The notes beneath the pieces are model-generated. The model searched no databases. It saw only the letters and a list, made by a program, of their open reading frames with translations, and was not told where the DNA came from. This document shows positions 48,344-62,485 of a stretch of 64,000 nt of DNA, piece after piece (the stretch's first letter is position 1; the number at the start of each line of letters is the position of its first letter). The stretch spans positions 2,480,001-2,544,000 of the forward strand of contig AP014633.1 of assembly GCA_000828835.1 (NCBI GenBank), read 5' to 3'. Origin of the DNA: Thioploca ingrica. GTDB taxonomy: Bacteria > Pseudomonadota > Gammaproteobacteria > Beggiatoales > Beggiatoaceae. A program made the translations under genes and the position numbers.

Positions 48344-48666
48344 TGGTGCCCGAGACCGGACTCGAACCGGTACGGTTTATAAAACCGAGGGATTTTCTTA
48401 CCAACTACAGCTTTCGCTGCCACCTAAACTTTAATTTTTTTAGATGTTTGTGGTCTGGACCCTATCTTTGCCTTTTACTTAATTTAAGCAGTCAGGCAGG
48501 AGCCGTATGGTCTCTACACTTTCTTAATGTTTATTGACACTAAGCTTAGCTCGGGGTTGCCATTTAACAGGTTTCACCGAATTAGACTCCATTCACCCTA
48601 AGATTTCGCCTAAGGTGCTCAATTTAATTTAAGTCCCTTGCGTCTACCAAATTCCGCCACCCGGGC
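48344..48666 (-). tRNA. tRNA-Leu (TAA) interrupted by a group I intron
   Basis: The 5' half GCCCGGGTGGCGGAATTTGG and 3' half (variable arm CTCGGTTTTATAAACCGT, T arm CCGGTTCGAGTCCGG, acceptor CTCGGGC, A, CCA) form a type II leucine tRNA. The anticodon stem AGGGA/TCCCT closes a loop CTTAAAA, anticodon TAA, but the two halves are separated by 234 bases inserted between the first and second anticodon bases. CCA is encoded. Confidence 0.92.
48397..48630 (-). ncRNA. Group I intron in the tRNA-Leu(TAA) anticodon
   Basis: On the minus strand it begins AAATTAAATTGAGC directly after U34 and ends with G before the 3' exon AAAATCCC. Conserved core elements of cyanobacterial and plastid tRNA-Leu introns are visible: the 5' TTAAATTAAATTGAGC run, GGCAACCCCGAGC in the P4-P6/P7 region and AAAGATAGGGTCC near P7/P9. 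No ORF is inside. Size (234) is within the range of the smaller bacterial tRNA-Leu introns. Confidence 0.85.
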
Positions 48667-48715: not shown

Positions 48716-48790
48716 TGGAGGCTGAGGCCGGATTTGAACCGACGTGAAACGAATTTGCAATCCGCTGCATAGCCACTCTGCCACTCAGCC
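48716..48790 (-). tRNA. tRNA-Cys (GCA)
   Basis: Acceptor GGCTGAG/CTCAGCC, anticodon loop ATTGCAAAT with anticodon GCA, T arm GTCGGTTCAAATCCGGC, discriminator T and encoded CCA. Second of three leftward tRNAs. Confidence 0.93.
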
Positions 48791-48845: not shown

Positions 48846-48921
<76 letters not shown>

Positions 48922-61963: not shown

Positions 61964-62178
61964 GTGCTTCCTCTGCTCGGTTGGGAGAAAATTCATTATT
62001 TGAGAACGGTAAATATTAAACTAAGTTGCTTATTATATGCAACCAACTGTTTTTATTATTTTTATATAAATTAACTTGCGGAAATTCAATCCGGATGGTG
62101 ACAAACCGGTTAAGTAAAAGCTAAAATTAATCGTTAAAAATGTAGACACTCAATTTGGCAAAAGCAAGGTAAATTTGT

Positions 62179-62485
62179 CAACTACCCCGCCCTCAAGGGC
62201 GGAGCTTGGAAAAGCTAGGTTGACCAGACTAAGCCGCTAGCAATAGTGGCTACGCCACCCCGAGGTCGTTAAGACTTACCAGCAGATGCTTCCTAAGTCT
62301 GCTGCCCTAAAAGGCTTTAATCAAGCTGGGGAAAGGTAAAGCCCCGCAGGTTTTAGTCGTTACTGGTAACAGTAAGAGCCGCGGGGTGGCCTTGTCGAAG
62401 GGAGATGGCAGGAAACTGCCGCGTCACTAGCCCCGTAAGGGGAGGGCTTAACCGCCGGACCGCTGGGAAAGACCAGCACCCCATT
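62179..62485 (+). ncRNA. Probable IscB omega RNA (HEARO-type), without its nuclease gene
   Basis: About 300 bases, far more GC-rich than the flanks, with no long ORF and dense pairing: CCGCCC/GGGCGG (62187-62202), AGCAGA...TCTGCT, GTTACTG/CAGTAA, CCCCG(C)...CGGGG joining 62342 to 62386, CCCC-GTAA-GGGG and GCTGG/CCAGC. The opening CAACTACCCCGCCCTCAAGG, the CTAAGCCGCTAGCAATAGTG and CGCCACCCCGAGGT segments match what I recall of HEARO/omega RNAs that lie 5' of IscB genes. Here no IscB follows. Recognition is from memory and needs a covariance-model search. Confidence 0.62.

Follow-up and report, generated by a model that had tools for sequence, protein, structure and literature searches.

The tRNA-Leu(UAA) gene of Thioploca ingrica is interrupted by a group I intron, which lies in a 64,000-nucleotide stretch of the genome (contig AP014633.1, positions 2,480,001 to 2,544,000 of the forward strand; hereafter the window). 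Our reading of this locus, to which we assign a probability of about 0.85, is that an intron without an HNH endonuclease reading frame splits what is apparently the sole tRNA-Leu(UAA) gene of the genome, within a Gly-Cys-Leu tRNA cluster, and that this intron would belong to a widespread, non-cyanobacterial lineage of the intron inserted between U34 and A35. Some members of that lineage carry an HNH reading frame, placed by its position in the P6 region, a few retain remnants of one, and some reside in the tRNA genes of phages. The feature in the window is real, is of a known kind and has already been noted in the family Beggiatoaceae.

The split gene and its surroundings

The gene occupies positions 48344-48666 of the minus strand, with 234 nt between U34 and A35 (Table 1). 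ARAGORN run without introns misses it; with introns of up to 3000 nt allowed, the program reports a tRNA-Leu(taa) whose intron, of 234 nt, follows GACTT and has the same ends, which bears out the host gene and insertion site named by the first-pass annotation. The joined exons make an 89-nt tRNA that folds as tRNA-Leu(taa) with its CCA. The insert had been called a group I intron, and the Infernal search recommended as a check upholds this: cmscan with the Rfam model RF00028 scores it at 61.8 bits against a cut-off of 50 (E 2.9e-13), its P1-P9 fold covaries, its 3'-terminal base is the G characteristic of group I introns (48397), and U34/A35 of tRNA-Leu(UAA) is the insertion site of the class of introns to which it was assigned. 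The sequence motifs quoted earlier are all present, but the intron itself starts with AAATTAAATTGAGC, the preceding TT being the end of the exon (U33-U34). The likeness to the cyanobacterial and plastid intron that had been pointed out is plainly recognizable, in the shared site and in the common TTGAGC and GGCAA..GAGC pieces.

The genome is a single contig of 4,810,005 bases (4.81 Mb). One exact pattern found no intact tRNA-Leu(UAA) gene in it, and BLAST of the joined exons against the genome returned, apart from the two exon pieces, a single 74% match elsewhere; the split gene thus appears to be the only one. Since no intact copy was found, splicing of this RNA should be essential to the cell for the reading of UUA codons. 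In the wider family, 24 of 42 genomes carry the split gene (L150-L173), 13 an intact gene and 5 neither, and no genome is in both lists. By the standard group I mechanism, the P1 helix with its U.G pair would set the 5' splice site just behind U34, that site would be attacked by a P7-bound guanosine, and the freed U34 would then attack after the last G of the intron, joining U34 to A35 and restoring the UAA anticodon.

Table 1. Features of the split tRNA-Leu(UAA) gene, its intron and the neighboring tRNA genes, in window coordinates.
Feature	Position	Strand	Basis and remarks
tRNA-Leu(UAA) 5' exon, through U34	48631..48666	minus	36 nt; ends GGGACUU; ARAGORN -i3000; exon piece matched by BLAST at 100%
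Group I intron without HNH ORF	48397..48630	minus	234 nt; last base G
tRNA-Leu(UAA) 3' exon, A35 to CCA	48344..48396	minus	53 nt; begins AAAAUCCC; ARAGORN and BLAST
P1, exon CUU + AA paired with UUGAG	48618..48633	minus	5/5 pairs identical in 39/39 introns
P2 hairpin	48594..48617	minus	least conserved helix, 71.8% of cells paired
P3 5' strand GGAGUC	48585..48590	minus	100% of cells paired; both-side changes in 4/6 pairs
P3 3' strand GGCUCC	48499..48504	minus	hand-drawn fold and covariation count
P4 5' strand	48576..48581	minus	outermost pair U-C, unpaired in window
P4 3' strand	48550..48555	minus	hand-drawn fold and covariation count
P7 5' strand GACC	48509..48512	minus	98.7% of cells paired; last pair UA:28 CG:10 GC:1
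P7 3' strand GGUC	48458..48461	minus	hand-drawn fold and covariation count
P8 hairpin	48469..48498	minus	hand-drawn fold and covariation count
P9.1 hairpin with GAAA loop	48408..48419	minus	100% paired; double changes in 4/4 pairs
tRNA-Cys(GCA), upstream neighbor of tRNA-Leu	48716..48790	minus	ARAGORN, Rfam
tRNA-Gly(GCC), first of Gly-Cys-Leu cluster	48846..48921	minus	ARAGORN, Rfam

The Gly-Cys-Leu order of the cluster is that of glyW-cysT-leuZ in E. coli. Among the introns compared in this study, tRNA-Gly(GCC) and tRNA-Cys(GCA) lie within 900 nt upstream in all 15 Beggiatoaceae loci with enough upstream sequence (18 in all), one of which has extra tRNA-Gly copies in the cluster; the same holds for 12 of the 32 other gammaproteobacterial loci with enough upstream sequence (33 in all) and for none of 50 such cyanobacterial loci (51 in all). 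The order is also kept at 11 of the 13 intact tRNA-Leu loci of the family, the remaining two being a Cys-Leu pair on a short contig and a gene beside tRNA-Leu(CAA). Given this cluster context, the split gene is most simply the native leuZ. A search of plasmids with the neighborhood matched 38 records, none over 80% of the query, and the five shown cover 2-3% of it. Elsewhere in the window, at 62177-62409 of the plus strand, lies a HEARO RNA (RF02033, 104.4 bits); visual inspection of the surrounding ORFs of 80 aa or more showed no evident HNH- or IscB-like reading frame, and a 165-aa ORF downstream looks to us like a member of the Uma2 family.

Fold and covariation of the intron

The intron is more stable than its shuffled versions (z-score -3.29), none of 200 shuffles reaching an equal stability. 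Helices P1-P9 were drawn by hand on the window sequence and then counted on an alignment of 39 introns no longer than 300 nt, which come from Beggiatoaceae and other Gammaproteobacteria, from Acidobacteriota and from a single unassigned proteobacterium. In this alignment 90.9% of the helix cells are paired, against 78.1% in shuffled alignments, and double changes occur in 350 cells, against 123.6; both sides have changed in 37 of the 59 pairs, and on none of five covariation measures did any of 500 shuffles come as high as the observed value. The U.G pair of P1, which marks the 5' splice site, is UG in all 39 introns. The catalytic core is present throughout, with P3, P4, P5, P7 and P8 paired in 96-100% of cells and P6 in 86.5%, and compensatory changes are seen in P3, P4, P6, P7, P8 and P9.1. 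The small size, the lack of a P5abc-like insertion and the kinship with tRNA-Leu introns would fit a tentative placement in subgroup IC3. From the fold, the covariation and the intact exons, the gene is predicted to be competent for splicing.

The groups differ in their P3 helix. The GGAGUC/GGCUCC pairing of the window is shared by 11 of the 18 Beggiatoaceae, 26 of the 33 other gammaproteobacterial and all three acidobacterial introns; 14 of 18 cyanobacterial or plastid-like introns have GCUCUC/GGGAGC instead, and six phage introns have six different pairings.

Distribution of the split gene

RF00028 has matches in 28 of 57 relatives, and scanning named genomes for split copies returned at least 118 stretches, of which 116 can be read as split tRNA-Leu; the exceptions are L133 and L142, and some wrong ARAGORN labels were corrected from the letters of the exons. 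After four duplicates of the relatives' loci had been dropped and the relatives' loci added, the set used for trees held 126 introns: 51 cyanobacterial, 33 from Gammaproteobacteria outside the family, 18 from Beggiatoaceae, 6 from Betaproteobacteria, 5 from other proteobacteria, 3 from Acidobacteriota, 2 each from Chloroflexota and Planctomycetota, 2 plastid-like and 4 others. In an even sample of the class, 59 of 369 genomes match our model R1; 30 loci were returned for these, the other 29 genomes being without a locus and unclassified. Among the 26 loci from outside the family, 21 are split tRNA-Leu genes (L185 and L192 after label correction), so that with four family genomes the split gene is present in at least 25 of the 369. 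The rarity in proteobacteria suggested by the first-pass annotation is not borne out by these counts from the family, the class and other phyla.

The RF00028 cut-off is reached in none of eight other loci scanned (L035, L060, L252, L253, L254, L256, L257 and L258). With E of up to 1 allowed, L060, from the cultured Thiohalophilus thiocyanatoxydans DSM 16326, scores 36.3, L035 32.3, L252 28.0 and L254 21.8 bits, and L253, L256, L257 and L258 give no match. Model R1 finds all ten sources given to it, L035, L060 and the window intron having been in its training set. Failure to reach the RF00028 cut-off may be a reason why such split genes go unannotated; a tRNA that should be essential is hidden from default gene finding, the gene in the window being missed by ARAGORN without introns and the intron in the eight other loci by that cut-off. 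The split tRNA-Leu genes L090 and L091, which group with cyanobacteria, come from metagenome-assembled genomes (MAGs) labeled Lactobacillus and Clostridia, and are probably mis-binned plastid DNA.

Intron phylogeny and the cyanobacterial introns

Our core tree was built from an E-INS-i alignment reduced to columns with letters in 80% or more of the rows (125 rows, 208 columns); the long rows L051 and L064 and three tRNA-Gln or tRNA-Lys introns were left out, and the tRNA-Arg row L018 was kept. A branch with support 97/99 divides this tree into 54 rows, consisting of all 51 cyanobacterial introns, the 2 plastid-like ones and one labeled Gracilibacteria, and 71 others. The 18 Beggiatoaceae rows, the window among them, form a clade (99/93), which is adjoined by an Acidobacteriota row (99/87); the nearest rows outside the family are thus acidobacterial. 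In a second tree, with 15 hand-chosen rows of the 51 cyanobacterial ones and without L018, the 18 cyanobacterial or plastid-like rows stand together at 100/99. Nesting of the Beggiatoaceae intron among cyanobacterial introns is seen in neither of these trees. A first tree from a poorer alignment (MAFFT auto) did not recover the cyanobacteria as one clade, needing 4 changes, and its four AU tests rejected nothing (p 0.215-0.338).

On the core alignment, the AU test rejects a grouping of Beggiatoaceae with 23 Nostocales-like rows (p 7.5e-5) or with four Microcoleus-like rows (p 0.0047), and of the window's genus with the Nostocales-like rows (p 3e-43), these cyanobacterial clades having been picked after the trees were seen. 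It does not reject cyanobacteria plus Beggiatoaceae as one side of the tree (p 0.328), nor cyanobacteria plus the window's genus (p 0.334). A recent cyanobacterial origin is accordingly rejected for two named cyanobacterial groups and not for a deep placement; an ancient exchange between cyanobacteria and Beggiatoaceae may have taken place. Mean core identity to the window intron is 0.82 for Beggiatoaceae, 0.71 for Acidobacteriota, 0.68 for other Gammaproteobacteria and 0.59 for cyanobacteria.

Inheritance within Beggiatoaceae

The host tree available for comparison is a weak one, derived from RpoB only by a quick search and covering the 30 of 42 family genomes that gave an RpoB locus. Presence of the intron requires 8 changes on it over 28 labeled genomes; with two unlabeled rows counted as others, 9 changes are needed, and 176 of 500 shuffles are as low, which shows no clustering beyond chance. 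Close pairs, G010 and G028 among them, differ in intron presence. When the introns of 17 carriers are set against the RpoB topology, the AU test rejects it (p 0.003) and the SH test does not (p 0.367); the AU value is 0.004 without G004 and 0.013 without both G004 and G019, which are long rows. The likelihood cost of the RpoB topology (deltaL 22) is small beside the 140-220 of 20 label-shuffled versions, and intron distances correlate with RpoB distances (Mantel r 0.45, equaled or exceeded in 3 of 5000 permutations). These data are best fitted by descent that is mostly vertical, the intron being lost repeatedly and perhaps at times transferred within the family; the Beggiatoaceae introns form a single clade and would have been lost, or regained, many times. 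The RpoB searches also showed that in nine genomes (G002, G007, G008, G011, G015, G021, G022, G026 and G035) the RpoB match is broken into two or three separate stretches, which are mostly in one long open frame of up to 2115 aa, as in-frame insertions, for example inteins, would give.

HNH endonuclease genes and phage carriers

Eleven of the 116 named introns are longer than 600 nt, at 681-712, and all contain an ORF of some 154 codons, which is antisense in ten and sense in the Chloroflexota row L103; L187 of the class sample is a twelfth, in a count that leaves aside introns L188 (698 nt) and L192 (594 nt). PHROGs identifies all three ORFs scanned as HNH endonuclease (7.9e-48 and 2.1e-46 for the two bacterial intron proteins, 7.7e-51 for the third), and the Pfam HNH models give matches below their curated cut-offs only. 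By position the ORF lies in the P6 region; remnants of it are found in introns L075, L134 and L086. The Beggiatoaceae copies examined have no ORF, and tblastn with two HNH proteins gave no match at E 1 in the 234 nt of the window intron. A search for relatives of the HNH ORF in the 57 related genomes, the window's genome included, found none; it was run without a positive control.

The intron is also carried by phages. A pattern search of IMG/VR yielded four stretches, each with a split tRNA-Leu(UAA) among other tRNA genes. L253 and L255 are one phage type, being identical over the at least 8.2 kb compared and in the intron, and the 160-kb contig of L255 has genes for ribonucleotide reductase subunits and for a primase, all belonging to phage families; for L254, two of three proteins match unnamed phage families, and for L252 the assignment to phage rests on the IMG/VR collection. 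Phage records searched with the L254 gene gave a list of ten, several being duplicates or records matched solely in the ORF or the tRNA part. The three that we fetched, from two uncultured phages (735 and 595 kb) and the cultured Agrobacterium phage Atu_ph07, all contain a split tRNA-Leu(taa), the introns being 205, 700 and 278 nt long. The gene of Atu_ph07 is at L258:1753-2114 (NC_042013 112890-113251) and has the 278-nt intron; the phage record annotates no tRNA in this stretch, and a hypothetical protein overlaps the 3' part of the gene.

Built without the phage loci, model R1 scores the seven phage loci at 68.9-92.1 bits; the RF00028 cut-off is reached by none of the six scanned. In the second tree the phage introns are scattered among the non-cyanobacterial rows, and four of the six distinct ones fall, with weak support (91/64), in a group with Beggiatoaceae and Acidobacteriota. 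Three of the six (L252, L254 and L257) hold the HNH ORF, and L257 is 81.6% identical over 163 nt to the Chloroflexota intron L103, the ORF being in sense orientation in both.

Origin of the intron

The first-pass annotation proposed horizontal transfer from cyanobacteria, which share mats with Beggiatoaceae, and named grouping with vertically inherited gammaproteobacterial introns as the result that would speak against it. Such a grouping is largely what we find, with the reservations that the nearest rows outside the family are acidobacterial, that presence is patchy and that strict co-descent with RpoB is rejected by the AU test. The common site and core pieces, together with the two deep placements that the AU test leaves standing on the core alignment and the lack of any rejection on the first, poorer one, are what a transfer from mat-forming cyanobacteria has in its favor. 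As a recent event we nevertheless consider it very improbable, in view of the separation of the cyanobacterial and plastid-like rows in both later trees, the Beggiatoaceae clade, the rejection of nesting in either the Nostocales-like or the Microcoleus-like rows, the identity to the window intron, which is lowest for cyanobacteria, the P3 pairing that the window shares with most other Gammaproteobacteria, and the position of the gene inside the Gly-Cys-Leu cluster. We give almost no credence to the view that the intron is dead and the gene a pseudogene: the outermost P4 pair is indeed lacking in the window, but P1 is invariant, P3, P7 and P9.1 have compensatory changes across relatives, and the exons are intact with no second copy found.

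Two older or more mobile histories deserve more weight. It is possible, if doubtful, that the Beggiatoaceae lineage of the intron goes back to a homing copy, carried by a phage or driven by an HNH endonuclease, whose endonuclease gene was lost afterwards: the phage introns lie within the non-cyanobacterial part of the tree and partly with Beggiatoaceae and Acidobacteriota, HNH ORFs occur in bacterial and phage introns alike, and carriers include Fermentibacteria and Chloroflexota rows, the latter with its close likeness to a phage copy; set against this are the lack of an HNH relative in the 57 genomes searched, the weak support for the joint group and the chance that single cross-phylum rows reflect mis-binning of MAGs. 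An intron that occupied the site before the cyanobacterial and proteobacterial lineages parted, and has mostly been lost since, would account for the exact site and core common to all groups, for the one long branch between cyanobacterial and other introns and for the intron distances that track RpoB within the family. We think this unlikely in light of the sparse presence in the class sample (where 29 more matching genomes are unclassified) and the easy route of spread offered by HNH-bearing and phage copies; the tree on which it is judged is unrooted. With confidence a little short of even, we propose that outside cyanobacteria the U34/A35 intron is a mobile element, spread across species and phyla by a mostly antisense HNH endonuclease gene in P6 and by phages, and that copies without the gene, such as those of Beggiatoaceae, are its domesticated or decaying descendants. 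If the non-cyanobacterial lineage is common and partly mobile, arguments for great age that rest on the shared site need to be tested again.

Relation to known introns

Small group I introns in proteobacterial tRNA genes are known from Azoarcus, in tRNA-Ile, and Agrobacterium, in tRNA-Arg; they sit in different tRNAs and are outside the present alignments. Both go back to Reinhold-Hurek and Shub (1992), as cited in a 2014 review (PMC4033280), which in its accessible part lists group I tRNA introns in cyanobacteria, alpha- and betaproteobacteria and plastids and cites the tRNA-Leu(UAA) intron as an ancestral intron of cyanobacteria and plastids. The window's intron is like that cyanobacterial and plastid trnL intron in gene, U34/A35 site, the P1-making CUUAA..UUGAG and core motifs; it differs in its separate branch and in the P3 helix, which is mostly different in the cyanobacterial and plastid copies, and the cyanobacterial copies that we examined have no tRNA-Gly-Cys neighbors. 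Within the family, split tRNA-Leu(TAA) genes were noted by Flood et al. (2016; PMC4853749), citing MacGregor et al. (2013): in Ca. Maribeggiatoa (BOGUAY) and Ca. Thiomargarita nelsonii Bud S10, the genes for tRNA-Leu-TAA and tRNA-Arg-TCT have putative group I introns. These concern the same tRNA-Leu gene and family, and our tree row L123 is a Ca. Thiomargarita nelsonii contig; the accessible part of that paper gives no subtype, structure or phylogeny, and its pairing of tRNA-Leu with tRNA-Arg introns contrasts with the window's genome, where RF00028 matches tRNA-Leu and tmRNA only.

The tRNAscan-SE 2.0 paper (PMC8450103) mentions, in the portion available, 36 genomes in which group I introns hide genes for fMet or Ile2 tRNAs, and a review of bacterial group I introns (PMC3984707) states in its accessible part that phage introns then known were all in protein genes. 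Introns in the tRNAs of Lak megaphages were called enigmatic by Devoto et al. (2019; PMC6784885), tRNA-Tyr and tRNA-Thr being named in the part at hand, and the term 'group I' is absent from the main text; the introns described here likewise lie in phage tRNAs, and differ in that the gene is tRNA-Leu(UAA), the core is of group I and an HNH ORF is present in part. By a term search, the word intron is absent from the main text of the Atu_ph07 paper (PMC6102473). A literature search, conducted mostly at abstract level and with thin coverage of subscription papers, yielded no report that we recognized of HNH-bearing or phage tRNA-Leu(UAA) introns; the HNH ORFs in non-cyanobacterial relatives and the phage carriers, Atu_ph07 included, may therefore be new. 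A 2025 collection described as holding 42,459 group I introns in the accessible part of its report (PMC11835236) may already contain these sequences.

Other putatively split RNA genes

The scans also returned further tRNAs, from the class or the family, that ARAGORN reads as split by introns in the anticodon loop, with putative labels: tRNA-Gln(ctg) in L007, L009 and L205, tRNA-Lys(ctt) in L011, tRNA-Arg(cct) in L018 and L174, tRNA-Arg(tct) in L176, a tRNA with anticodon cat in L023 and tRNA-Ser(tga) in L201. In the window's own genome the second RF00028 match, at 29.6 bits and below the cut-off, falls in the T-loop of tmRNA (L002:1226-1806; C1:3265753-3266333), where the tmRNA itself scores 177.9 bits; introns at this position are already known, with 883 sequences given in the accessible part of a published survey (PMC11915505).
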